A stretch of 64,000 bases of DNA, from the NCBI GenBank assembly GCA_023665475.1, contig JAMPEB010000002.1, forward strand, positions 124,001 to 188,000, read 5' to 3'. Source of the DNA: Lachnoclostridium sp. (GTDB taxonomy: Bacteria; Bacillota; Clostridia; Lachnospirales; Lachnospiraceae). Below the pieces are notes generated by a model, which saw only the letters and a list, made by a program, of their open reading frames with translations, was not told where the DNA came from and did no database searches. A program made the position numbers and the translations under genes. Numbering within the stretch: position 1 is the stretch's first letter; every line of letters starts with the position of its first letter. Positions 6,910 through 51,123 of this stretch are shown here, piece after piece.

Positions 6910-7986
6910 CTATTTTCCGCTACTCAATCCGCCGCTTGAAGACTTCCGGCTGTTTATGCTCGACTGTCTTATGGAGCTGGAATAACTGTCAAAATAACCG
7001 TTGCCGATATTGTGAATCGTGGTCCCGTTATACATCGAATATGCCGACGGCGTACCCTTATAAGAAACGGAGTCCGAAGCATACCCCACGCTGTAATAAT
7101 GGCTCCGATACCAAAGGGTGCCGGCTGCCGAGCTTCGGTAAGGGGCATTGTCCGATGTGTAATTATACTTTCTGCCCGATACCTGAACATATACCTTCTG
7201 CCCTTCATTTTCCGGATGATACACAAGACAGTATTCTTTATCGGTCAAAATGGCAATCTCTTCGTCCGCCGTATCATCCTTCTGGATCACCGACTGGGTA
7301 TTTCCCTCAATGCCCTGAATAATATCCTTTGCCACATCGTCCGTCGTCGCCGATGTCTGATAAGCATATACCGATGCCTTCTGCTTTTCGCTGCCGGATA
7401 TGGAGGTTTCATACACATACTTGTCGGAATTTTTCACATATTTGGCAATGCTCTTGCCTGTGTTCAGATTGGGCAGAACAACAGCTACAAGTACCCATAC
7501 GAAAACAAAACCAAAAACCAGACATAAGGCTGCCAAATTTGAATTTTTTTTCACAACGGGCGCTTCAAATCCGGTTTCCACAATATCGCTTTTCTCAATG
7601 TACTCACCCTTGGAAAATTCGGTGCCGTCACTCCAAATCTCAACGGAAAGCGTATGATCCTCCGATGCATCCTCATATTCTATAAAAGAAGCGCTCTCCC
7701 CGGGATCCACATCCACATCTCCGCTGCTGAAACGGACTATCTGGGTTCCTTCATCCACCTTATGCCATTCCGGACCAATCCGCCCTCCCACATCATTGGC
7801 AGGATAAGAAACGGAATATTCGTCATAAAACTCGTCACAGGAAAGCCACGCTTCTCCTCTTTGTGTTTTTAATCTGTATTCCGTCCAGAATTTACCGGGG
7901 TCCTGTATGTTTTCGTATTGGATATACCCAATCACCTTTCCCGACAAGCCGTTTATACTGAGCAGTGTGCCCACATCATAAAACAT
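6910..7986 (-). CDS. DUF4178 protein with one transmembrane segment
   Basis: The 358-residue protein starts with a DUF4178-like beta-rich domain (residues about 1-145) showing GTLLSINGLSGKVIGYIQYE, WTEYRLKTQRGEAWLSCDE and EGTQIVRFSSGDVDVDPGE. One membrane helix follows at about 151-173 (LCLVFGFVFVWVLVAVVLPNL), then a Ser/Tyr-rich extracytoplasmic or cytoplasmic tail. Function is unknown. GAAGGAGG precedes the ATG. Its position between speD and DUF350 supports a shared role with the polyamine genes. Confidence 0.82.
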   Translation of the reverse strand: MFYDVGTLLSINGLSGKVIGYIQYENIQDPGKFWTEYRLKTQRGEAWLSCDEFYDEYSVSYPANDVGGRIGPEWHKVDEGTQIVRFSSGDVDVDPGESASFIEYEDASEDHTLSVEIWSDGTEFSKGEYIEKSDIVETGFEAPVVKKNSNLAALCLVFGFVFVWVLVAVVLPNLNTGKSIAKYVKNSDKYVYETSISGSEKQKASVYAYQTSATTDDVAKDIIQGIEGNTQSVIQKDDTADEEIAILTDKEYCLVYHPENEGQKVYVQVSGRKYNYTSDNAPYRSSAAGTLWYRSHYYSVGYASDSVSYKGTPSAYSMYNGTTIHNIGNGYFDSYSSSIRQSSINSRKSSSGGLSSGK

Positions 7987-8001
7987 ATCCTGCCTCCTTC
8001 T

Positions 8002-8352
8002 TCACTCACCTTCCGACGGTTCTTCAATATTGCGCTGTATGGTTCTGAACCGGATACGCCCCGCGCCGAATAAATCCTTCAGCATCTGCGCAATCCCATC
8101 CGTCACTTCCTCTTTACAGGAAAAAATATCGACCGCCGCATATCGGTGTTCCGGCCATGTATGTATGGAAAAATGAGAATTGGAAATAATGGCAAAATAG
8201 GTGATTCCTACAGGTTCAAATTTATGGACGCACTCTTCCACGATATGCGCGCCCACATATTCGACCGCTTTATGGGCGGCAGCCTTTATGGCTTCCACAT
8301 CATCAATCATTTCCGAACAATCATATAAATCTGCGATAAGCTGTACTGCCAT
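8002..8352 (-). CDS. speD: S-adenosylmethionine decarboxylase proenzyme, bacterial SpeH/SpeD type
   Basis: The 116-residue size, the segment SNSHFSIHTWPEHRYAAVDI and the FSCKE cysteine identify the small prokaryotic AdoMet decarboxylase, a pyruvoyl enzyme made by self-cleavage before a serine. It makes decarboxylated AdoMet, the aminopropyl donor for spermidine. The cleavage serine normally follows Glu (ES-H); here the pair reads N-S-H, which is an odd feature worth noting. The next gene upstream ends only six bases before this start, and the membrane-fused SpeE homolog is encoded three genes downstream. Confidence 0.92.
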   Translation of the reverse strand: MAVQLIADLYDCSEMIDDVEAIKAAAHKAVEYVGAHIVEECVHKFEPVGITYFAIISNSHFSIHTWPEHRYAAVDIFSCKEEVTDGIAQMLKDLFGAGRIRFRTIQRNIEEPSEGE

Positions 8353-8358
8353 TTGGGA

Positions 8359-8691
8359 TCACTTCTTTCTGCCAAATAATTTCCCGGTCAGCTTGTGAAG
8401 CATTCCGTAGTCGGATTTCGATTCGCTTCTGTCTCCGCCGCATTTCGGACAGCGGGAAACATCCGCGCGGTTATAGGAACCGCAATAATCACACAGCCAA
8501 TCCGGCGCATCTGTGGTTTTTGCTTTCTCCTCCTGAGTCAGGACCGCCGCATCCAAATCATCGGGCAGATAAAAAAGTGTGTCAATCCCCCGCGGTCTTC
8601 CGCAGGACATACAGGCGTCAAACCTTGCTTTGATTCCCTTACGCCCGCAATATGCGCAGTCCCACAAGCCTTCTATCCTTTTTTCTTCCAT
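8359..8691 (-). CDS. Double zinc-ribbon protein of the polyamine cluster
   Basis: The 110-residue protein has two RanBP2-like zinc ribbons: W-D-C-A-Y-C with C-M-S-C-G-R-P (residues about 10-33), and W-L-C-D-Y-C-G-S-Y-N with C-P-K-C-G-G (about 66-86). The tail is basic (KLTGKLFGRKK). Such ribbons bind protein or RNA. It could be a soluble adaptor for the membrane proteins encoded next to it. It starts the run of closely spaced cluster genes, 14 bases after the alaS stop, so it may be read through from alaS. Confidence 0.8.
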   Translation of the reverse strand: MEEKRIEGLWDCAYCGRKGIKARFDACMSCGRPRGIDTLFYLPDDLDAAVLTQEEKAKTTDAPDWLCDYCGSYNRADVSRCPKCGGDRSESKSDYGMLHKLTGKLFGRKK

Positions 8692-8705
8692 TCTGTCCTA
8701 CCTGT

Positions 8706-11360
8706 TTACGCTAACTGCCCTTCCAGTACCTTTGCAGCCTCCGCGATTGCCGCAGGAATCCCCGCAGGATTCTTGCCGCCCGCCTGCGCCATATTGGGTC
8801 TTCCGCCACCGCCGCCGCCTACGAGAGCCGCAATGCCCTTGATTAAATTGCCCGCATGAGCACCGTTCTTCATGGCCCCATCCGTAGCCATGGCAATCAT
8901 ATTCACCTTGCCATCCTGATTGGACAGAAGCACCACTACGCCTTCGCCCAATTTTTCCTTGAGCTGGTCGCCCAAGTTGCGCAGTCCGTTCATGTCCACG
9001 CCATCCACGCTTGCCACAAGGAGCTTCACTCCTTTTACCTCAACGGTTCTATCCATTACATCGCCTAAAGCTTCTTTTGCAGCCTTGCTCTTTAAAGATT
9101 CATTCTCGGAAGCAAGTTCTTTCATCTCTGTCATAACATGCTCGCATTTTTCCACCAAGGAACCGGGATTCGTCTTAAGAACCCGACTTGCCTCCTCCAA
9201 AACCTTCTCCAGATTCCGGTAATAAGCCATGACTCCGTTTCCGGTCAGGGCTTCAATTCTGCGGACTCCCGCAGCCACGCCGTTCTCGGAAAGAATCTTA
9301 AAGGTAGAAATAACGCCTGTATTTTTAACATGGGTACCGCCGCAGAGCTCCACGGAAAAATCGCCCATTTTTACGACCCTTACCTTCTCGCCGTACTTTT
9401 CGCCGAACAATGCCATAGCACCTGTTTTTTTAGCCTCTTCAATGCCCATAACATCTGTTACCACAGGAAGATTCTCGGAAATCTTCTCATTGACAAGCGC
9501 TTCCACCTTAGACAGCTCGTCCTGTGTCATGGGCGCAAAATGGCTGAAGTCAAAACGCAGCCTCTCACCGTCCACATAGGAACCGCTCTGCTCCACATGG
9601 GTTCCAAGCACCTCTCTCAAAGCTTTCTGGAGCAGATGGGTCGCGCTGTGGTTCTTACAGGTGTCCGCCCTGTTTGCGGCATCCACCGTCAGGGTAACCA
9701 CATCTCCCACCTTCAACATGCCCTGCGTGACCGTCCCCACATGACCGATTTTGCCACCCAGAAGCTTAATGGTATCTTTTACCGCAAAACTGCCGTCCTT
9801 TGTGGTAATCACGCCGGTATCCGCATTCTGTCCGCCCATGGTTGCATAGAACGGCGTCTCTTCGACAATAATGGTGCCTGTCTGTCCGTCCGTCAGCGCA
9901 TCCACCAACTCCGTCTCCGTGGTCAGCACGCTTATCTTGGACTCATGCTGCAAGCGGTCATAACCTACAAATTCCGAAGTGATATTCACATCAATGGACT
10001 CGTATATGGTGGCATCCGCGCCCATATAATTGGTAACTTTGCGGGCTTTTCTCGCCTTTTCCTTCTGCTCCTTCATGCAGGCGTCAAACCCTGCCTGATC
10101 TATGCCGAAACCTTTCTCCGCAAGAATTTCCTCCGTCAAATCCACAGGAAATCCATAAGTGTCATAAAGTTTAAATACATTCTCACCGGAAAGCTCCTTA
10201 ACCCCGGAAGCCTTCATCTCCTCTTCCATCTCTCCTAAAATGCCCAATCCCTGATCGATGGTCTTGTCAAATTTATCTTCTTCCTGCGTCAATACATTCA
10301 GAATAAAGTCTTTCTTTTCCTCAAGCTCCGGATATCCGTCCTTACACTCGTGAATGACCGTCTTACTTAAATCGGCCAAAAACTTTCCGTCAACGCCGAG
10401 AAGCCTGCCATGCCTTGCCGCACGGCGGATTAATCTGCGCAGCACATAGCCCCTGCCTTCATTGGACGGCAGAATACCGTCGCTTATCATAAAGGTAGAG
10501 GAACGGATATGGTCGGTAATCAGACGGATGGACACATCCTTTGCCTCGTCCGTCTGATATTTCACATCTGCAATCTCACAAATCCTGTCACGGATTGCTT
10601 TCATGGTATCCACATCAAACACGGAATCCACATCCTGCACCACAACGGCAAGACGTTCCAGCCCCATGCCCGTGTCGATATTTTTCTGGGAAAGCTCTGT
10701 ATAATTTCCGTGTCCGTCATTGTCAAACTGTGTGAACACATTGTTCCACACTTCCATGAAACGGTCGCAGTCGCAGCCCACCTTGCAGTCGGGTTTGCCG
10801 CAGCCGTACTTTTCGCCCCTGTCATAATAAATCTCGGAACAGGGACCGCAGGGACCTGCGCCATGCTCCCAGAAATTATCACACTTTCCGTTCTCGTCCC
10901 GGTAAAAACGCGTAATCTTCTCACCGGGCACGCCTATCTCCTTTGTCCAGATATCATATGCCTCATCATCCTCGCAATAAATAGACGGATATAATCTCTC
11001 CGGCTCCATCCCCACTACCTGAGTGAGGAATTCCCAACTCCATGCAATTGCTTCATGCTTAAAATAATCTCCGAAGGAGAAATTTCCCAACATCTCAAAA
11101 AAGGTAAGATGCCTTGCCGTCTTACCAACATTCTCGATATCTCCCGTGCGTACGCATTTCTGACAGGTGGCAACCCTGCGCCTCGGAGGGATTTCCTGTC
11201 CCGTAAAATAAGGCTTTAAGGGCGCCATGCCGGAATTAATGATTAACAGACTGTTGTCATTATGCGGCACCAGAGAAAAGCTCTTCATCTTTAAATGCCC
11301 CTTGCCCTCAAAAAATTCCAAAAACATTCTCCTTAATTCATTTACGCCGTATGGTTTCAT
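8706..11360 (-). CDS. alaS: Alanyl-tRNA synthetase
   Basis: AlaRS charges tRNA-Ala and edits mischarged Ser and Gly. The 884-residue product has the class II catalytic domain (ELRRMFLEFFEGKGH, then motif-2-like FEMLGNFSFGDYF), an editing domain with HSATHLLQKALREVLG and CGGTHVKNTG zinc ligands, and the C-Ala domain ending GGGGGRPNMAQAGG. The upstream frame to 11552 lacks family similarity. GGAGG eight bases before the ATG at 11360 fixes the start. I looked for a T-box leader upstream and found none; the leader instead holds two strong hairpins. Confidence 0.97.
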   Translation of the reverse strand: MKPYGVNELRRMFLEFFEGKGHLKMKSFSLVPHNDNSLLIINSGMAPLKPYFTGQEIPPRRRVATCQKCVRTGDIENVGKTARHLTFFEMLGNFSFGDYFKHEAIAWSWEFLTQVVGMEPERLYPSIYCEDDEAYDIWTKEIGVPGEKITRFYRDENGKCDNFWEHGAGPCGPCSEIYYDRGEKYGCGKPDCKVGCDCDRFMEVWNNVFTQFDNDGHGNYTELSQKNIDTGMGLERLAVVVQDVDSVFDVDTMKAIRDRICEIADVKYQTDEAKDVSIRLITDHIRSSTFMISDGILPSNEGRGYVLRRLIRRAARHGRLLGVDGKFLADLSKTVIHECKDGYPELEEKKDFILNVLTQEEDKFDKTIDQGLGILGEMEEEMKASGVKELSGENVFKLYDTYGFPVDLTEEILAEKGFGIDQAGFDACMKEQKEKARKARKVTNYMGADATIYESIDVNITSEFVGYDRLQHESKISVLTTETELVDALTDGQTGTIIVEETPFYATMGGQNADTGVITTKDGSFAVKDTIKLLGGKIGHVGTVTQGMLKVGDVVTLTVDAANRADTCKNHSATHLLQKALREVLGTHVEQSGSYVDGERLRFDFSHFAPMTQDELSKVEALVNEKISENLPVVTDVMGIEEAKKTGAMALFGEKYGEKVRVVKMGDFSVELCGGTHVKNTGVISTFKILSENGVAAGVRRIEALTGNGVMAYYRNLEKVLEEASRVLKTNPGSLVEKCEHVMTEMKELASENESLKSKAAKEALGDVMDRTVEVKGVKLLVASVDGVDMNGLRNLGDQLKEKLGEGVVVLLSNQDGKVNMIAMATDGAMKNGAHAGNLIKGIAALVGGGGGGRPNMAQAGGKNPAGIPAAIAEAAKVLEGQLA

Positions 11361-42199: not shown

Positions 42200-42904
42200 T
42201 CATCCAAATAGCCGCCACAAAAGCAGAAGCAATGCCATTATCCCGAACAGAAATATAAACACCGTCTGGCGGGCTTTTCGTGTCATGGAACTGCCAAACT
42301 CACTGGCAGGATGGATGGTTTCATAATAAATAAACCCTTCCATTTCCTTTTTTAAAGAATCTAAGGAAATGGAACCGGCATCCACTTTTTTGCGAAGCTC
42401 CTCCATGTTATCCCGATACAGATAATAGCGGCTCAGCACATGAACCAATTTCTGCTGCTCTATGCGGTAAGTGGGTTCCTTGTCCAATTCCTTATGTATC
42501 TTTCCCTTTTCCGGCGGAAGCAGCCCTCCCGTCTGCTGGGGATTTTCTTTGTTAAGCCAAAGCAAAGCTATTGTTTTTAACAGACTGTAAGCCAGAACGG
42601 GAAAACTTAGAATATAGACACATATAAGAACCGTCCCTGCGCCTTGAAGCAAAACATATACAAAAGTATTTGACACTATATAAGTCCTTGTGCGCAGCAG
42701 CCACATTCCTACATACTGCAGCAGCTTCCAGAAAATCACCGGCACAACAAGGATTCCCGCATATAGAGCCAAATCCTGCCATAACCCATGCAAACGCCTG
42801 TTTACGCTTACAAGCTGGCTCTCCGCCTCTGTAATAGCATAATCCAGATGCCATTTTTCCTGATTCCACACATATAGCAGGCTCGCATTTGTCCCTTCCT
42901 CCAT
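42200..42904 (-). CDS. Membrane protein of unknown function next to the ABC/HlyD operon
   Basis: The 234-residue protein has an N-terminal helical segment, two membrane helices (about 46-62 and 85-120, VLLQGAGTVLICVYILSFPVLAY), a cytosolic part with helical stretches (RIEQQKLVHVLSRYYLYRDNMEEL) and a C-terminal anchor (VFIFLFGIMALLLLLW). No known domain. GGGAGGAG precedes the ATG. It is downstream of the HlyD-like gene but with copy B of the dispersed element and a possible promoter between, so it may form its own unit. Confidence 0.65.
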   Translation of the reverse strand: MEEGTNASLLYVWNQEKWHLDYAITEAESQLVSVNRRLHGLWQDLALYAGILVVPVIFWKLLQYVGMWLLRTRTYIVSNTFVYVLLQGAGTVLICVYILSFPVLAYSLLKTIALLWLNKENPQQTGGLLPPEKGKIHKELDKEPTYRIEQQKLVHVLSRYYLYRDNMEELRKKVDAGSISLDSLKKEMEGFIYYETIHPASEFGSSMTRKARQTVFIFLFGIMALLLLLWRLFG

Positions 42905-43140: not shown

Positions 43141-44556
43141 TTACTCCATCATTCTCACGCCTTCCCCCTGCTCTAATTCCTCCGAACTGTAAGTAATGAT
43201 CTCCGTATCTGCTGCCACCGTCCCTGCTTCCAGCGCTGCATACCGCTCATTTAAATCCGCTATCTGTACCTTCAATTTTTCCGCATAGAGTTCCTTTCCC
43301 AGAATACCGCTTTTTTCTTTTAAAACATAGATATAATAAGCCTCATTTTCTTTATGAAGCGCCTCGATGGGAATTACCGTATTATGTTGTTCACCCTGCA
43401 CCGTCTTGCGAACGCTCCCGTTTGCTCCGGGCGTTCCCGTATCTTTGGGCAGCCTGCAGATCATATCATAACCGCCCGATGCGCTTTGCGACAAATAATC
43501 CACTTGCGCGTCTATATCGGAACCGCTGCCGATTTTAAGCTTCACCTTGTCGCCCAAATGCAGATATTTTCCCTGTTCTTTTGTAATGCTAAACTTAAAT
43601 TGGCAGGGAACTTCCCCATCTGTCAAAAGAATCGCTGCCGTATCCGAAATGCGGCTTCCTATGCCAATCTGTATTTTTGAGACAAATCCCGCCTTTTGCG
43701 CCCTGACTTCCCCCTCTGCCCTACGCAGCTCATACACTTTTTCCAATTCCGCCTGTAAAGCATCCATATCCAGCCTGTAAACAGCCGCCGTAGAATCAGT
43801 AACACCCGTTATTTCCGCATCCGCCAAGGCTCTGCGCTTCTGCTGTAAAGCATTCTCTCTGGTACGCTCCGCATCTTCCAGATTTTGCCTTGCATGGTTG
43901 ACCGCAGCTTCCAGACTTTCTTTTGTCTGCTGCCAACTGCTTTGCGAACTGTCCTCCGATGCGGCGGCATCGGAACCGGAAACGGTCTGTTCCGAATCCT
44001 TTTCCCCGGAATCTTTCTTGTCTAAATGTTCCTCCAGAGCTTCCTCCGCATCCTCCAGAACCCTTCGGGCTTCCTCCACACTTTTTCCTGTTTCCTCATC
44101 AACGCTGTCATAATCCTCTTTTGCCCGAAGAATCTCTTTTTCCTTTTGTTTGGATGTGACTGTCTGATTTTCCTGAAAATCACTCAAATGATATTTCAGC
44201 TTTTTTAGCTCTCTCTCTTTTTCGGAAATGATTTCCTCCAAATCTTCTAAATCCACACAAAAAAGTAAATCCCCTTCCGCTACCAAATCCCCTGCCTGCA
44301 CATATATTGTCGAAACCCGGATTCCCGGTGTGGCATTTACGGCAAATTCTCCCCCTGCCACCACAATGCCCTCCGTTTCCACAATGTGCTCCACATACTT
44401 TTTACTTGGCGCCTGTGTCGTCACTCTGGGAAGTCCCGCTACATAAATACTCTTGGATATGATAGTACATATCCACATGAACGCCAAAAAGATTCCGAAT
44501 GCCATACACCACTTTTTCCATTTTTCAGTGCTTATCTCTTTTTCCTCTGTTCCCAT
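43141..44556 (-). CDS. HlyD-family membrane-fusion (periplasmic adaptor-like) protein
   Basis: The 471-residue protein has one N-terminal membrane helix (about 17-37). A biotinyl-lipoyl-like half follows (ATPGIRVSTIYVQAGDLVAEGDLL), then a long coiled-coil hairpin (about 120-265, including a Ser/Asp-rich insert SGSDAAASEDSSQSS), the second lipoyl half (RAQKAGFVSKIQIGIGSRI) and a beta-barrel domain. In Firmicutes such adaptors help ABC exporters or anchor substrate-handling complexes. It is encoded behind two importer-like permeases, an unusual combination. The leader contains two dispersed repeat families. Confidence 0.87.
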   Translation of the reverse strand: MGTEEKEISTEKWKKWCMAFGIFLAFMWICTIISKSIYVAGLPRVTTQAPSKKYVEHIVETEGIVVAGGEFAVNATPGIRVSTIYVQAGDLVAEGDLLFCVDLEDLEEIISEKERELKKLKYHLSDFQENQTVTSKQKEKEILRAKEDYDSVDEETGKSVEEARRVLEDAEEALEEHLDKKDSGEKDSEQTVSGSDAAASEDSSQSSWQQTKESLEAAVNHARQNLEDAERTRENALQQKRRALADAEITGVTDSTAAVYRLDMDALQAELEKVYELRRAEGEVRAQKAGFVSKIQIGIGSRISDTAAILLTDGEVPCQFKFSITKEQGKYLHLGDKVKLKIGSGSDIDAQVDYLSQSASGGYDMICRLPKDTGTPGANGSVRKTVQGEQHNTVIPIEALHKENEAYYIYVLKEKSGILGKELYAEKLKVQIADLNERYAALEAGTVAADTEIITYSSEELEQGEGVRMME

Positions 44557-44648: not shown

Positions 44649-44762
44649 GAAGAATGCCCGAATTTTGGGCATTCTTCGGCGTGAGATTTAGTACTTCTTA
44701 GGCGGCTACACCGCCTTTGCGAAACTGCCCATTGGCATGAGCTTTAGAAGTACTTCTCACGC
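44649..44762. repeat. Double-hairpin intergenic element, copy 2
   Basis: A perfect 11-bp stem (GAAGAATGCCC, loop GAATTTT, GGGCATTCTTC) lies at 44649-44677. It adjoins a long inverted repeat with arms GCGTGAGATTTAGTACTTCT (44679-44698) and AGAAGTACTTCTCACGC (44746-44762), which enclose the hairpin GGCGG/CCGCC. It begins five bases after the permease stop on the minus strand, matching the layout of the element at 11495-11580. Confidence 0.75.
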
Positions 44763-44767
44763 TAACT

Positions 44768-45628
44768 TCATTTCAGTCCCGAATAAATAATGCCCTGTTC
44801 CAGATAATCCTGTCCCATAACAAACATAAACACCGCCGGAACCAGCATGACGACAGACGCGCTGAACGCAAATCCCGCCTGTGTCCACTCTATTTCCGGA
44901 AGATACAATGACAAAGGCCACAAAAATTTATCCTTCAAAAAAGTAAGGGGCTGCTCAATCATATTCCAATATTCCAAAAAACCAAGCACGATGGATGAGA
45001 GAATCCCTCCCTTTCCCAGCTTAATTCCCACTTCCCTGAAAATAAAAAACTCATCGGCGCCATCTATTCTTGCCGCCTCTATCAAGGCTCCGGGAATAGC
45101 GCAAAAACCGCCATACATAACAAAAATCGGGAAAGTGTTGAAGACCGCCGGAAGAATCACCGCCCAATGTGTATTCAGCAAGGTCATTTTGTTCAATACC
45201 AAATAGCTGGAAAGCATCGTCACCTGAAAAGGCAGGAGCATCAAAACCACATATAAGGTAAAGAGCAGATTCTTCCCTTTCACCCGGTAAACCGCAAATG
45301 CCCACGCCGCAGGCACTCCCACAAGCATCTGCCCTGCAAGGATAAATACCGTCATTTTTATGGAATTCCAAAAAAGCACAAAAAACTGTGGGGATTTCAC
45401 CAGCAGCCGACTGTAATTTTCCAATGTGGGATAATCCGGAATAAGCTTCCATGTGACGAAGCCTTTCCCTTCCAAAAATACCGGCGCCAGACATTCCCTT
45501 AAATCACTGTTTCCCATTACGGAGCCCGTCACTACAAAAAAGACCGGCATACAGATAACAATTCCCATTGCCAGAAAAACTGCCTTTTCCATTATTTCGA
45601 CTGCCTGACGCCTCCACCTTTTTGCCAT
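44768..45628 (-). CDS. ABC importer permease, CUT1-type (MalG-like)
   Basis: The 286-residue permease has six hydrophobic segments and the cytoplasmic EAA loop that contacts the ATPase (EAARIDGADEFFIFREVGIKLGKGG). The ATG at 45628 is five bases after GGAGG; a longer frame to 45640 is possible but weak. Similarity is to carbohydrate-uptake permeases. No ATPase gene is present, so it may use a shared MsmX-like ATPase encoded elsewhere. The leader carries a hairpin/RBS element at 45635-45660. Confidence 0.9.
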   Translation of the reverse strand: MAKRWRRQAVEIMEKAVFLAMGIVICMPVFFVVTGSVMGNSDLRECLAPVFLEGKGFVTWKLIPDYPTLENYSRLLVKSPQFFVLFWNSIKMTVFILAGQMLVGVPAAWAFAVYRVKGKNLLFTLYVVLMLLPFQVTMLSSYLVLNKMTLLNTHWAVILPAVFNTFPIFVMYGGFCAIPGALIEAARIDGADEFFIFREVGIKLGKGGILSSIVLGFLEYWNMIEQPLTFLKDKFLWPLSLYLPEIEWTQAGFAFSASVVMLVPAVFMFVMGQDYLEQGIIYSGLK

Positions 45629-45634
45629 TCTACC

Positions 45635-45660
45635 CTCCATGCCGCCTTCGGCGGCTCAAA
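45635..45660 (-). repeat. Hairpin/RBS dispersed element, family 2 copy 1
   Basis: On the minus strand GCCGCC, loop GAA, GGCGGC runs into ATGGAGGG, the ribosome binding site of the MalG-like permease. Twenty-three of 26 bases match the copy at 59265-59290. Confidence 0.75.
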
Positions 45661-45723: not shown

Positions 45724-46518
45724 TCAGGAAAAAGAATCCCGGTTCCAAAGATGATTTAAAAGCATGATGAACAAAAACAGAAAACCTCCTACCAGAACCG
45801 TTGCCGCAGACATTTTATCCAGCTCCAGATTCACATACCAATTATTAAAAAGATGCTGTAGCAGATAAAGAGCCTTCCCCGGATAGGAGCCTGCCACCAG
45901 ATACGCCTCCCTGTATATCTTAAAGGAATTTAGGAAAGACAATATCACAATGGTATACAGACTCCCTTTCAGACAGGGCAGTTTAATATAAAAAAAGCAC
46001 TGCCATTTGTTCGCGCCGTCCATCTTCGCAGCCTCCACCTGTTCCCTTGGAATCCCCGCAATGCCCGCAAGCCACAGCACTATAGTATAGCCGAGATTTT
46101 TCCACAGATAGCTTGCCACAAGGCTGCCAAAATCCTGTTTATAAAAAAACATTCTCCAGATAATTACCACCGTTGCCGTAGGCATGGCCATGGGAAACAG
46201 ATACAGACTTTTAATCAGCGTGATATCCCGCATCCTGCTTAACACAAGAGCAGCGGCAAGCCCTGTCACAAGCAGCAGGGAAATACCTGTCAAAGCAAAA
46301 TGTACTGTATTCTTTACCGCAAGCAAAAACGCGTCGTTATTCAGCACTTTTCTATAATTTTCAATCCCTGCAAAATCCCCCGACATCACCGTGAAAAAAG
46401 AACGCCTTACCACATCCAGAAAAGGCAGCAGCACAAATATTAAAACTCCCAGAAAGCTAAATCCCAGAAAACAGGCAAAAGCCTTTCTCTCCTTATGCGC
46501 ATTCGTTCTTCTTCCCAT
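45724..46518 (-). CDS. ABC importer permease, CUT1-type (MalF-like)
   Basis: The 264-residue permease has six hydrophobic segments and the EAA loop EAAKMDGANKWQCFFYIKLPCLKG. It pairs with the downstream MalG-like permease to form the transmembrane pore of an importer. GGAGG lies five bases before the ATG at 46518; the ATG at 46530 lacks a site. It starts 24 bases after the solute-binding gene stop, clearly in the same transcript. Confidence 0.9.
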   Translation of the reverse strand: MGRRTNAHKERKAFACFLGFSFLGVLIFVLLPFLDVVRRSFFTVMSGDFAGIENYRKVLNNDAFLLAVKNTVHFALTGISLLLVTGLAAALVLSRMRDITLIKSLYLFPMAMPTATVVIIWRMFFYKQDFGSLVASYLWKNLGYTIVLWLAGIAGIPREQVEAAKMDGANKWQCFFYIKLPCLKGSLYTIVILSFLNSFKIYREAYLVAGSYPGKALYLLQHLFNNWYVNLELDKMSAATVLVGGFLFLFIMLLNHLWNRDSFS

Positions 46519-46542
46519 CCAAACCTCCATAACACCCGTTTT

Positions 46543-48891
46543 TTATTCGGCAAGATAAATCTCCACCTTTGTCATGATATCCTTCACTGCCGTATCCAAG
46601 TCCTTCTCCCCCTTAAGATACGCCGCTCCCTCCGAAAAAACGGCATTCTCAAGAACGCTGTCAGGAAGATAAGGCGTATCGGCTTTCGTGATGAGATCCC
46701 GAAGCATCTGCATTTCCTCCTCATCCGGCAGATAGGATGAATATTCAATGGTATTTCCGTCCGCATCGCCTATCGTATAATATTGAAATTCCCCGCTTTC
46801 AGAAACCCAGTCCGGATTGACCACAAACTTATTTTCAAAGGACTGCCTGTTAATCGGATAGCCATAATGAGTCAAATCCTGCACATCTTCACTTAAAAGC
46901 GTCTGAATAAAGGATGCCGCCAAATCCGTGTTTTTGGAAGAGGCATTCATGCCTGCCAGAGTCATCGGCATATAGACATTTTGAGCCTGACCGGTCACTG
47001 CCTTATACGCCACATTTTCATGCCCTTCCGTTCTGGGCAGCGAAATGATATTGGCATAATCGTAAAGTCCGGTAGCCGCGCCGCACACTAGTTTTTCCTG
47101 CCCCATCAGATAGGCTGCTTCATTTATCGTATAGAAATAAATGCTGTCTTCATAAATCACGCCTTTTTCTATTTCGGAGGAGCCCCGCTCAACATAGGCG
47201 TTCACCATTGCCTCCGGCATCCCGTCCCTCACGGCATCATAGATTCTCTTGCTCTGATACAAGAATTCCCGCATCTGATTCTCATCCACTTTACCGCCGT
47301 CCGTCTTCCAAGAAGGTTCGCAAACCGGCAGAAATCTCTTCATCACGCTTTTTTCGGAATAATCCAGCATTATCCCTTTGCCCGGATATTCTTTCCGCAG
47401 AGCCTCCACGGCATCCGCAATCCCTTCATAGTCATCCATCCCTTCCAGATACTTCTCATCCGTGCTTATCATAGGCATCATAAATTCCGCCGGAACCTGA
47501 TACAGCTTTTGGTCCTTGTATAACGGTTTGAGCAAATTGTCAAACAGCTTCCGGCTGCCTCCCCAATCTGCCGTAAATCCTGAGAGGTCTGCCAGAATTC
47601 CCTTATCAATATAGGAGTCCACGGGCATATCATCCAGAATCAACACATCCGGACCGCTGCCCTCCAAAATTTTTGTATTTAACGCCTTTATCGCATCTTC
47701 TCTGGTGATTCCCTCCTCCATGCCTACTTCATAATCCACATACACATCGGAATTTTGCGTCTGATAAACGGAAACTGCCTGCCTGACGGTATTGTTTTCC
47801 TTTAAGCTGTATACTGTGAGACGATTCCCCGGCACTGTGGATATCGTGGCGTCATAAGTAAATTTCACCATCTTTAAATCCGAAAACTGTACCAGAAACT
47901 CTTCCTTATCCGTTAAAACCGCATCCAGCACGCCATGGGAAGGGTCTCCCAAAGAAGAGAGATTTCCGTCGATGATCTGTTCCATTGCACTGCCGCCGAT
48001 TACATGACGGTGCAGTCCCATTTTTCCCGCAACATATAATACGCCTTCTTCTCCCGAAAAAATTTTCGCACTATAATACCCATTGTTAAACTCTATCATC
48101 CCATAATTATCTTCTATAAAATCCTGCAGTACCTGATCCTCTATAAACTGCTCCTGTTCCATATCATAAAGGTATACCTCGTCACCTGTGGCACAAACCA
48201 AAATCCGGCCGCAGCATTCCAAATCAGTCTTAGAGCCCGGTATTTTCACAAACTCTTTGGTGTCTCCCGTTTTGGTATCAATCTCATAAACGGTATCGCC
48301 AAAAACGGAAGCGAAAAGCCTCCCTGATTCACTAAAAGCAAATTTCCTAACATAGAGTTCCTCTTTCGATAATCCCATATCAAAGGTTTTTGATGTGCCG
48401 TCGGAATAAATCAGCGCAAAATGCGGAGTCAATTCCTCTTCGGAATCGGGCGAATAGCACAATACCACAGTTCCATCTTTAGATATTCCCGAAGCAATGA
48501 TATAGTTTTTTGTACTGTCAAAATATTCCGCAAGAGAGCCGCTTGTCTCTTCCTGCCAGCTTTCACCGCCATCTTTGGACACAAATATCCCCAATGCTTC
48601 ATTCAAAAGCATGATTTTTCCGTCCGCCGACATTTGAAAGCATGAGCGGTCATATCTTCCTCCTTCCGCCAGTTCAAACACGCCTTTCTCCACATAACGC
48701 CCCATACCGGTCCCGCTATTCTCTCCCCGGGTATCTGCCTGTACTCCTGTCTGACCCGATGAAGCAGACTGTCCGTCTGCCGTCCCCTCATCTGCTATCT
48801 TACATCCGCTCAGGGACAGCACAAGGGAAAACGCCGCCACCAGCGCAGCTCCTCTGGCAAATACACCTCTTCCATACTTTCGTTTCTCCAT
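46543..48891 (-). CDS. Solute-binding lipoprotein fused to an N-terminal beta-propeller-like domain
   Basis: The 782-residue protein starts with a signal peptide and lipobox LSGC (residues about 25-30). Residues about 75-380 are repetitive beta segments, including an Asp-box SKDGGESW and blades such as GRLFASVFGDTVYEIDTKTGDTKEF, as in a beta-propeller. Residues about 385-782 form an ABC extracellular binding protein (GPDVLILDDMPVDSYIDKGILADLSGF, TLAGMNASSKNTDLAASFIQTLLS). The extra domain may sense or pre-bind the ligand. It is the first gene of the transporter operon. Starts at 48927 and 48930 are in frame; 48891 gives the best signal peptide. Confidence 0.85.
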   Translation of the reverse strand: MEKRKYGRGVFARGAALVAAFSLVLSLSGCKIADEGTADGQSASSGQTGVQADTRGENSGTGMGRYVEKGVFELAEGGRYDRSCFQMSADGKIMLLNEALGIFVSKDGGESWQEETSGSLAEYFDSTKNYIIASGISKDGTVVLCYSPDSEEELTPHFALIYSDGTSKTFDMGLSKEELYVRKFAFSESGRLFASVFGDTVYEIDTKTGDTKEFVKIPGSKTDLECCGRILVCATGDEVYLYDMEQEQFIEDQVLQDFIEDNYGMIEFNNGYYSAKIFSGEEGVLYVAGKMGLHRHVIGGSAMEQIIDGNLSSLGDPSHGVLDAVLTDKEEFLVQFSDLKMVKFTYDATISTVPGNRLTVYSLKENNTVRQAVSVYQTQNSDVYVDYEVGMEEGITREDAIKALNTKILEGSGPDVLILDDMPVDSYIDKGILADLSGFTADWGGSRKLFDNLLKPLYKDQKLYQVPAEFMMPMISTDEKYLEGMDDYEGIADAVEALRKEYPGKGIMLDYSEKSVMKRFLPVCEPSWKTDGGKVDENQMREFLYQSKRIYDAVRDGMPEAMVNAYVERGSSEIEKGVIYEDSIYFYTINEAAYLMGQEKLVCGAATGLYDYANIISLPRTEGHENVAYKAVTGQAQNVYMPMTLAGMNASSKNTDLAASFIQTLLSEDVQDLTHYGYPINRQSFENKFVVNPDWVSESGEFQYYTIGDADGNTIEYSSYLPDEEEMQMLRDLITKADTPYLPDSVLENAVFSEGAAYLKGEKDLDTAVKDIMTKVEIYLAE

Positions 48892-48958
48892 ACCTCTCCG
48901 TAAAAATTTTCTTATCATCCTTATCATCAATCCTTTCTAAAAACTGTTGCTTTCTTGC

Positions 48959-48994
48959 ATCATACCATTCCTTTCTCTAATCAATCTCTAAAAC
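48959..48994 (-). promoter_or_regulatory. Response-regulator operator and promoter of the transporter operon
   Basis: Reading the minus strand: TTTAGAGATTGATTAGAG (48992-48975), 10 bases, TATGAT (48964-48959) as -10. The two TTAGAG half-sites are 11 bp apart, one helical turn, and the second overlaps the -35 region, as for OmpR-type activators. It matches the site at 49061-49094 in sequence and spacing. Confidence 0.78.
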
Positions 48995-49059
48995 ACATTA
49001 ATTATCTATTAAGACTGCCGGGAATGCTTGCCTGTGCAAAAATCATTTAGTAAAATATA

Positions 49060-49094
49060 ATTTAGAGATTATTTAGAGGAATCCGTGGTATCAT
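49060..49094 (+). promoter_or_regulatory. Response-regulator operator and promoter of the two-component operon
   Basis: Reading the plus strand: TTTAGAGATTATTTAGAG (49061-49078), 10 bases, TATCAT (49089-49094) as -10. A third ATTTAG lies at 49045-49050. Sixteen of 18 operator bases match the divergent site at 48975-48992, and TGG precedes the -10 in both. The predicted start near 49101 supports translation from 49125, not 49107. Confidence 0.78.
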
Positions 49095-49124
49095 AAAATA
49101 TTATGAATGGCGGAGATTAAGGAA

Positions 49125-49808
49125 ATGCGCATTTTATTGGCTGAAGATGATAAAAATTTAAACCATATGCTTACGGCGCAGCTAAATACAAGAGGGTTTC
49201 TTGTGGATGCCTGCTTTGACGGTGAGGATGCCCTGTACTATGCCGGTTTAAATATTTATGATGTCATTTTATTGGACAGAATGCTCCCTTTCATGGAGGG
49301 CACACAGATTCTTGCCAAAATAAGGGAAAAGAATATTACCGCACCGGTAATTATGATCACCGCCCTCGGCACATTGGAGGACAAAATAAGCGGTTTTCAT
49401 GCGGGAGCTGATGATTATCTGGTAAAGCCTTTCGCTTTTGAAGAACTGCTTGCCAGAATCCAAAGCGTAACCCGGCGCTCACCTCTATTGTTCGCCCAGA
49501 ACAGCCTGCGGCTTGCGGATATTCATTATCTGCCGGATACCGATACCCTGACCGGTCCTATGGGCAGTTGTTCTTTGTCAAAAAGGGAAGGTGCTTTATT
49601 GGAAGTTTTTCTGCGAAATCCTGAATCCACCCTCTCCCGCTCCATGCTTTTATTAAAAGTGTGGGGGCCGGAAAGTGAAGTGGAGGACGGCAATCTTGAC
49701 AATTACATCCATTTTATCAGAAGAAGATTAAAGACCGTGGGAAGCAGCCTGAGCTTAAAGACAATCCGCGGCGTCGGCTATTGCCTGACTTCAACGCCCG
49801 GAAAATAA
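49125..49808 (+). CDS. OmpR-family response regulator
   Basis: The 227-residue protein has a receiver domain (MRILLAEDDKN, phosphoacceptor Asp51 in VILLDRMLP, Thr in ITALG, Lys in DYLVKPF) and a winged-helix output domain (ENGNLDNYIHFIRRRL-like stretch, TIRGVGYCL). It regulates transcription when phosphorylated by the downstream kinase. The ATG at 49125 has GGAG nine bases upstream. The likely targets are its own operon and the divergent transporter operon, through the shared TTTAGAG direct repeats. Confidence 0.93.
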   Translation: MRILLAEDDKNLNHMLTAQLNTRGFLVDACFDGEDALYYAGLNIYDVILLDRMLPFMEGTQILAKIREKNITAPVIMITALGTLEDKISGFHAGADDYLVKPFAFEELLARIQSVTRRSPLLFAQNSLRLADIHYLPDTDTLTGPMGSCSLSKREGALLEVFLRNPESTLSRSMLLLKVWGPESEVEDGNLDNYIHFIRRRLKTVGSSLSLKTIRGVGYCLTSTPGK

Positions 49809-49839: not shown

Positions 49840-51123
49840 ATGTTTCAAAAAATACGCCTGCGCCTTACCTTTTTATGCGGCGCCATCACAACCCTGATCA
49901 CCGTTGCCATGACTATCGGTTATCTGTATATATCGGAAAAGACCCTGATTGAAAATCGCCTGATGTCCTGCAGGAACGACATTTTTACCATTACCTCCAA
50001 TTTAGAACAGCAAACTGTCATTTCCCATGCATGGCTGGCAAAATTGGAAACGGGCAACAATTACTATATCTCTCTTTTGGACAACGGCATGCCGTTTTGG
50101 TTCAACAACGGAGTACATAGTGAAGACCAGCGGCAGCTTCTCAATAGTGCATGGGATTTTTACCGTCAAAACGGTTCATGCATGACGGAATACAGAATAT
50201 CTTACCGCAGCAGCTATAAGAGTTTTCAAACCGCCGATTATTGTTTTGTCATCACTTTGGAGACAAAAGGGGCTGTCCTCGAAATGCTGCTGATCTTACC
50301 ATCTTCCGAGATTTCGGGACAGATTCTCAGGCAGCGTCTGGGATTTCTTGCTACCATATCCCTCGCTCTCTTTGCCATATGGCTGTTTGCATGGTTTTTT
50401 ACGGGAAAGCTTCTATCTCCCATTGAGAAAAACCGTGAAAAGCAAAACCGCTTTATAGCCGCCGCTTCCCATGAACTGCGCACACCCCTTGCCGTAATTC
50501 TCTCCTGTGCGGAATCCGGTACGAATCACTCTGACGATGCGCCGGAAACTTCATTTAGCCGCCCCATGTCCGTCATCCGGAATGAAGCCCTGCAGATGCG
50601 CAGACTTTTAGAGGATTTGCTCACGCTTTCCAGCCGCGACTTAGGCACACTGAGCATTCATAAATCCTCCGTCTGGCTGGACACTCTGCTCTTAAATGCC
50701 TATGAATCCTTTGAACCCATGGCAAAGACGAAGCATATCCTGATGTCCGTAACCCTCCCGGATGACACGCTGCCGCCCTGCATTTGTGATAAAGAGCGGA
50801 TTTATCAGGTTCTTTCCATATTACTCCACAATGCCTTAAGTTATTCTTCTGAGGGCGGTAAAATAAACCTTTCTTTAAAATGTTCCGCAAAATATTTTAT
50901 ATTGTCTGTCTCGGATAACGGTCCGGGAATCCCGGATGACGAAAAGCCAAGAATTTTTGACCGTTTTTACAGAAGTGAAAAATCCAGAAGCTCCAAAGAT
51001 CATTTCGGGCTGGGACTCTCCATCGCTTATGAAATCATATCCGCCCATCAAGGCAGCATTACCGTCTGTGACACAGCGGGCGGCGGCGCCACATTTGTGG
51101 TAAGGCTGCCTTACTCCCCATAA
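49840..51123 (+). CDS. Sensor histidine kinase
   Basis: The 427-residue kinase has two membrane helices (about 9-31 and 168-188) flanking an extracytoplasmic sensor loop of about 135 residues. The dimerisation/phosphoacceptor site is ASHELRTPLAVI with His211. The ATPase N box (QVLSILLHNALSYS), G1 (DNGPGIP), F box and G2 (FGLGLSIA) follow. GGGAG lies seven bases before the ATG, 31 bases after the regulator. Its stop overlaps the stop of the convergent ProX-like gene by 13 bases. Confidence 0.94.
   Translation: MFQKIRLRLTFLCGAITTLITVAMTIGYLYISEKTLIENRLMSCRNDIFTITSNLEQQTVISHAWLAKLETGNNYYISLLDNGMPFWFNNGVHSEDQRQLLNSAWDFYRQNGSCMTEYRISYRSSYKSFQTADYCFVITLETKGAVLEMLLILPSSEISGQILRQRLGFLATISLALFAIWLFAWFFTGKLLSPIEKNREKQNRFIAAASHELRTPLAVILSCAESGTNHSDDAPETSFSRPMSVIRNEALQMRRLLEDLLTLSSRDLGTLSIHKSSVWLDTLLLNAYESFEPMAKTKHILMSVTLPDDTLPPCICDKERIYQVLSILLHNALSYSSEGGKINLSLKCSAKYFILSVSDNGPGIPDDEKPRIFDRFYRSEKSRSSKDHFGLGLSIAYEIISAHQGSITVCDTAGGGATFVVRLPYSP

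Follow-up and report, generated by a model that had tools for sequence, protein, structure and literature searches.

A conserved direct-repeat box predicted to place a two-component system, its divergent transporter operon and further genes of Lachnospiraceae under one OmpR-family regulator

The window, i.e., the whole 64,000-nucleotide stretch of Lachnoclostridium sp. DNA that was analysed, contains a two-component system and a transporter operon that diverge from a common intergenic region. On the plus strand, an OmpR/PhoB-family response regulator (49125..49808) with the Pfam domains Response_reg and Trans_reg_C, both above cut-off, is followed by a sensor histidine kinase (49840..51123) with HisKA and HATPase_c domains. 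The frame of the regulator is open from position 49107, and the ATG at 49125 is the start preferred by eye. On the minus strand, the first gene (46543..48930; start candidates TTG 48930, ATG 48927 or a later ATG) encodes a probable lipoprotein of 795 residues, referred to as SBP, in which a propeller-like N-terminal half precedes a sugar-type solute-binding C-terminal half. Then come a MalF-like (45724..46530) and a MalG-like ABC permease (44768..45640), both matching Pfam BPD_transp_1, a HlyD/RND-adaptor-like membrane protein (43141..44556), and a membrane protein without family assignment or Pfam match (42200..42904). The latter is possibly encoded by the last gene of the operon and, within the set of loci compared, is recognised besides the window only in L061, the nearest named relative. 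The HlyD-like assignment comes from the NCBIfam model RND_mfp (E 6e-18; 64.9 bits, below the cut-off of 94.9), and a Pfam search at 0.001 returns no match for this protein. In the gap that separates the MalG-like permease gene from the HlyD-like gene, positions 44649-44677 of the minus strand contain a stem-loop of 11 pairs, the tail of which is partly T-rich; it may act as an attenuator or a partial terminator within the operon.

The two-part composition of the SBP is indicated by domain, profile and fold matches. Its SBP_bac_1 match scores 25.3 bits for a cut-off of 26, and its N-terminal part has profile matches to WD40- and Ycf48-like propellers. In the predicted structure (mean pLDDT 80.4), residues 76-364 are mostly strand and are followed by a mixed SBP-like fold; the best solved match of the model is the sugar-binding CbpC (7x0o_A; TM 0.74 by target, 0.42 by query). 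Sugar ABC importers of the CUT1 type share a MalK/MsmX-type ATPase. The operon resembles them by its SBP with MalF- and MalG-like permeases, the modelled SBP fold appearing nearest to that of sugar binders such as CbpC, whereas the propeller-like N-terminal half of the SBP, the HlyD-like adaptor within the operon and the predicted OmpR-type regulation set it apart. No ATPase gene was recognised in the transporter operon; one OB_MalK-type match is found elsewhere in the same genome, and this unlinked protein is consistent with an ATPase shared with the transporter.

The intergenic region includes two direct repeats of identical promoter geometry, exactly as proposed in a preliminary description based on the sequence of the window. 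On the minus strand, TTTAGAGATTGATTAGAG (48992-48975), made of the half-sites TTTAGAG and ATTAGAG around ATTG, lies ten bases ahead of TATGAT (48964-48959), which together with a preceding TGG forms the extended -10 element of the transporter promoter (48959..48967). On the plus strand, TTTAGAGATTATTTAGAG (49061-49078), made of two TTTAGAG half-sites around ATTA, is likewise ten bases upstream of TATCAT (49089-49094), the extended -10 element of the regulator promoter, again with TGG, covering 49086..49094. Both repeats have their half-sites 11 bp apart and are predicted operators, for the transporter operon (48975..48992) and for the regulator gene, respectively. By eye, a good -35 hexamer is absent at 16-18 bp because the repeat occupies that place. 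The TGG ahead of the -10 box, another element of the preliminary description, is present in both promoters of the window, but its conserved part among relatives is reduced to TGn. A consensus promoter scan also proposed TTTAGA-16-TAAAAT at 49072; this reading is rejected because the columns conserved in relatives form TGnTAnnnT at the -10 position originally described.

Searched throughout the window with up to three mismatches, the degenerate 18-mer of the repeat gives two matches only, both perfect, whereas shuffled windows give a mean of 0.32 matches, with two or more in 2 of 100 shuffles. Genome-wide, the 18-mer gives 4 matches with at most two mismatches, versus 1 for the reversed control, and a composite pattern combining repeat, spacer and TGnTAnnnT gives 3 exact matches versus 0. 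This composite (TTARAG-N5-TTARAG-N7-TGnTAnnnT, 17 fixed positions) was made after the sites of relatives had been seen.

Of 397 genomes from the family of the window, 118 contain SBP homologues (E up to 0.001), and most of the first 30 SBP loci have an adjoining regulator. Twenty larger regions were taken, 17 with a neighbouring regulator and 3 around the closest SBPs. A search of the genome contigs gave no match when the SBP was used on its own; a query alignment of 16 SBPs, from which homologues with in-frame stops (L026, L032) were excluded, gave 467 matches, the best 80 of which were kept and represent 79 further distinct loci. Among the 99 loci and the window, 81 hold an SBP and a regulator homologue of at least 45% identity. 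These 81 loci, picked by protein homology and independently of the box, include the window itself and count at least one locus twice (L058 is the same as L130). The regulator and the SBP are divergent in all of them except L048, and the SBPs of the 80 divergent pairs are mostly 27-42% identical to that of the window. Many relatives (L070-L139) also have between two and four SBP paralogues in tandem.

Allowing up to 2 mismatches over the 17 positions, 74 of the 80 divergent pairs have the composite in the 400 bp ahead of the regulator (49 exact). When the SBP strand is searched along the whole gap from the regulator to the first SBP, all 80 pairs have it (69 exact). Both sides carry it in 74 pairs; most of the relatives that keep both operons thus keep the repeat upstream of both, as the preliminary description had anticipated. 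The reversed pattern reaches 2 mismatches in 4/80 pairs and never fewer. The distance separating the regulator from the SBP ranges from 134 bp to 8.1 kb (less than 500 bp in 43/80) and, as the whole gap was searched, some of the SBP-strand boxes belong to intervening lipoprotein genes. The six pairs without a regulator-side box are L041, L049, L050, L052, L054 and L104. The genome of L052 (G176) has an exact box about 390 bp from the regulator match and, by eye, another small gene precedes the regulator of L041 in the same direction. Upstream of the regulator at this latter locus (also numbered L011), a consensus-like TTGACA...TATAAT promoter, oriented like the regulator, stands, by eye, before a small lipoprotein-like gene.

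To analyse the spacing of the half-sites, the highest-scoring TTTAGAG pair was determined for every period from 7 to 26 in the 81 loci. On the strand of the gene, period 11 reaches at least 12/14 in 55/81 regulator promoters and 62/81 SBP promoters and alone stands out, the other periods reaching this score in 0-9 promoters, and dinucleotide shuffles in 0.5%. Period 11 is also prominent on the opposite strand (46 and 34 promoters), as expected because the box of the partner is within reach. For the second SBP copies of tandems, 12/14 or more at period 11 is attained in 4/28, which equals period 9; thus, these copies have as a rule no box of their own. Aligned sites scoring at least 11/14 (73 regulator-side, 62 SBP-side) consist of TTAGAG, an A with A/T-rich sequence after it, the second half-site TTARAG, and TG-n-TA-nnn-T. 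The TG and TA columns stand at one fixed distance, with a conservation of 95-98% on the SBP side (n=62) and 96-100% on the regulator side (n=73). If the best TATAAT-like hexamer of each site is taken instead, the spacer is 10 in 56/73 regulator-side and 36/62 SBP-side sites. Restricting the set to the 60 regulators below 90% identity leaves 52 with a regulator-side score of at least 11/14, 45 with an SBP-side score of at least 12/14, and 38 with both.

Genome-wide, the bare 18-mer with one mismatch is no more frequent than its reversed control in 61 relatives, and it is the addition of the spacer and TGnTAnnnT that made the search selective. Indeed, the exact composite occurs at 65 sites in 44 of the 397 family genomes, versus 4 sites for the reversed pattern. 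Of these 44 box genomes, 43 have an SBP match, compared with the base rate of 118/397 (hypergeometric P about 1e-24); the remaining one, G283, has a lipoprotein target. Each site was assigned to the first homologue recognised in the 1.4 kb downstream of it. This classification covers 61 of the 65 sites, and 57 of them lie upstream of a regulator (14), an SBP (25), a permease (4) or a lipoprotein of one family (14). The other 4 precede an amidase in the window's genome, a HlyD-like gene (G177), a MurT-like ligase (G013) and a contig end (G318). In 39 genomes selected for the cassette, 26 of which are also among the 397, an exact match is present in 36, with 81 sites versus 1 for the control. 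All loci taken together, 188 distinct sites are distributed between SBP (75), regulator (53), lipoprotein (46), permease (5) and other genes (9), a set that is biased because some regions were chosen around sites. As the composite was derived from regulator and SBP promoters, its recurrence provides independent evidence for the other target classes only.

The lipoproteins behind the additional sites, of about 180-240 residues, align as one family. Among 15 members, two have weak DUF5666 matches (best E 7e-6) and one a DUF4969 match, and NCBIfam models match at most one of the 15 each. A profile of the family run over loci L041-L139 retrieves 35 clear members (E below 1e-17), L058 and L130 being one locus and the two genes of L110 being identical to two rows of the profile; six weaker matches (E above 1e-6), including at least one SBP, were dropped. 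A box with at most 1 mismatch precedes 30 of the 35, a further one (L048) has 4 mismatches, and the other 4 lie within the SBP operon. These box-less lipoprotein genes (L063:12875-13381, L064:12362-12868, L068:9922-10500 and L138:12905-13411) are found in the gap between SBP and permease. The genome of the window has no clear member, the matches listed for it being discounted because they cover only about the N-terminal half of the profile, with the signal peptide and a low-complexity stretch.

Besides the two boxes of the window, its genome includes a third exact composite box (G000:C7:2973-3005, minus strand), which ends about 120 bp before a 349-residue open frame. The Amidase_2 domain of this frame identifies an N-acetylmuramoyl-L-alanine amidase gene, the product of which has one membrane-spanning stretch by eye, and the boxed gene is one of four with Amidase_2 matches in this genome. 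Amidases were searched in 33 genomes, 29 of which gave a match, and 30 of the 37 places listed were examined, the window's genome included. With the stricter form of the pattern, a box with at most 1 mismatch is present at 8 of these 30 loci (in G000, G457, G463, G464, G370, G060, G460 and G469, of which G000 and G457 share much DNA at this locus and should count as one), and the next best locus has 4 mismatches. The controls (opposite strand, reversed pattern and 597 shuffled windows) never fall below 4 mismatches. The amidase is thus a recurrent rather than a universal target, as 22/30 loci have no box.

The regulators of the aligned loci share the motif E.GNLDNY..F.RRRL, conserved at 95% or more and lying in what we take, from the OmpR family, to be the DNA-contact region. 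Of the 87 NCBIfam models that match the regulator of the window, the 25 listed all give scores below their cut-offs, so that none of them assigns it to a named equivalog such as PhoB, PmrA/BasR, VanR or YycF; the best score among these 25 is obtained with RppA (167 bits, cut-off 250), and PmrA gives 128 bits for a cut-off of 330. Response regulator D (1kgs) and BasR (8jo2_H, 4s04_A) are among its relatives of solved structure. BasR/PmrA operators are bound by an OmpR-family dimer on tandem T-rich half-sites of the TTAAG type, and these systems, although the protein is related, differ from the present one in core sequence and target genes. Tandem hexamer repeats 11 bp apart are usual for other OmpR-family regulators too. 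The reading of the promoter geometry as that of OmpR-family activators, already put forward in the preliminary description, is supported as far as sequence comparison goes by the specificity of period 11, the fixed -10 columns and the nearly invariant DNA-contact region.

The Salmonella PhoP box of promoter architecture I is a hexanucleotide direct repeat with a 5-nt gap at the place of the -35 element (PMC3335776). It shares with the boxes described here the direct orientation and the location, roughly one helical turn ahead of the -10 box. By contrast, the half-site is TTAGAG here versus (T/G)GTTTA in PhoP, the distance to the -10 box is 10 nt versus about 12, and a conserved TGn extends the -10 element here. 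In this arrangement, the same study showed that activation by PhoP depends on orientation and phasing, and a sigma contact is predicted there as for PhoB and VanR. It is because of this common arrangement that the present boxes are read as activator sites. PhoP is described there as using five architectures; one geometry was searched here, and others may exist.

Taken together, the boxes are interpreted, with a probability of about 0.83, as PhoB/PhoP-type activator sites through which the divergent OmpR-family regulator would control its own operon and the SBP/permease/HlyD operon; the regulator thus very probably uses the repeat to switch on its own gene and the transporter genes. The phosphorylated regulator encoded at 49125 would bind each box as a head-to-tail dimer occupying the -35 place, ten bases upstream of the extended -10 element. 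There, it would recruit RNA polymerase in the manner proposed for PhoB, PhoP and VanR at sites that overlap the -35 element, and activate both its own operon and the divergent one. It would probably also activate the N-acetylmuramoyl-L-alanine amidase gene in the same genome and, in relatives, members of the one lipoprotein family and separate permease operons. From sequence conservation, the regulon thus appears wider than the two operons of the preliminary description, as it would include lipoproteins, separate permease operons and, in some genomes, the amidase. Binding, its dependence on phosphorylation, and activation rather than repression are what we infer from these comparisons.

Repression, or a role that switches, by a regulator bound at the same boxes would be an improbable explanation, in which the extended -10 element alone, possibly functional without a -35 hexamer, would ensure basal transcription. 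Simple occlusion would presumably not need the conserved phasing observed, and a directly oriented repeat placed one helical turn before the -10 box is the activating architecture measured for PhoP (PMC3335776). Less probable still is a box recognised by an alternative sigma factor or by some other DNA-binding protein, whose association with the two-component genes would be a mere co-occurrence. Position and co-occurrence are what link the box to the regulator, but the regulator gene is itself a recurrent target (14/61 sites, 74/80 pairs), and nearly all box genomes (43/44) have an SBP match. Moreover, the -10 box resembles an ordinary extended element of the sigma-A type, and tandem hexamers 11 bp apart are the usual OmpR-family site, as for PhoP (PMC3335776). 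A fortuitous match, or a repeat pair duplicated locally in the recent past, could have been suggested by the presence of just two perfect copies in the window and by the 2/100 shuffles that also give two loose-pattern matches. This reading is refuted by the period-11 specificity, the 65 versus 4 genome sites and the 74/80 pairs; the box is kept across 80 divergent pairs despite the low identity of their SBPs and also occurs upstream of unlinked genes.

In many relatives, the second half-site is weaker at the regulator promoter than at the transporter promoter. Among the 38 non-redundant loci with two boxes, the second half-site is TTAGAG in 36 SBP promoters versus 17 regulator promoters (discordant loci 20 vs 1, P 2e-5), a difference that the two boxes of the window do not display. 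Conversely, the -10 box of the regulator is slightly nearer to consensus than that of the SBP (4.71 vs 4.24 of 6 positions, P 0.002). From these sequences, the regulator promoter may be set for some basal activity and the transporter promoter for tight dependence on the regulator. A third half-site was suspected by eye upstream of some boxes, including the amidase box.

As judged from its targets (the sugar-type SBP, the HlyD-like adaptor, the lipoproteins, the peptidoglycan amidase of some genomes and two SPFH genes of the nearest relative), the regulon would serve cell-envelope or glycan sensing. The mechanism is of a known kind; the regulon itself, its box and its cassette were not found in the open-licence literature, of which listings and the beginnings of abstracts gave a partial view. 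Tentatively, and with less than even odds, the locus could represent the core of an undescribed system of cell-envelope surveillance and remodelling across Lachnospiraceae. One operator geometry and one subfamily of two-component regulators would there couple a propeller-fused glycan-binding transporter with its HlyD-type adaptor, the uncurated lipoprotein family and, where boxed, a peptidoglycan amidase. A pair of promoters read by eye thereby becomes a defined and searchable regulon, with a composite operator specific enough for 57 of 61 classified sites to fall on four gene classes. It also offers a first context for the uncurated lipoprotein family, and the tie between the transporter and a cell-wall amidase in some genomes makes signal and substrate directly testable.

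Comparison of the window with L061 gives identities of 59% for the SBP, 68% for the kinase, 82-83% for the permeases, 88% for the HlyD-like protein and 90% for the last membrane protein, as if the ligand-facing parts (SBP and kinase) diverged fastest. In the surveillance system tentatively proposed above, the SBP and the sensor kinase, both evolving fast, may jointly sense extracellular glycan or muropeptide signals. Two Band_7/SPFH genes (7894-8760 and 8789-9814, minus strand) separate the regulator from the SBP in L061 and run in the direction of the regulator. Single boxes, each seen once, precede two more envelope-related genes, for the MurT-like ligase of G013 (L241:1424-2788, plus strand) and a Peptidase_C39-like protein of G467 (L213:6588-7676, minus strand).
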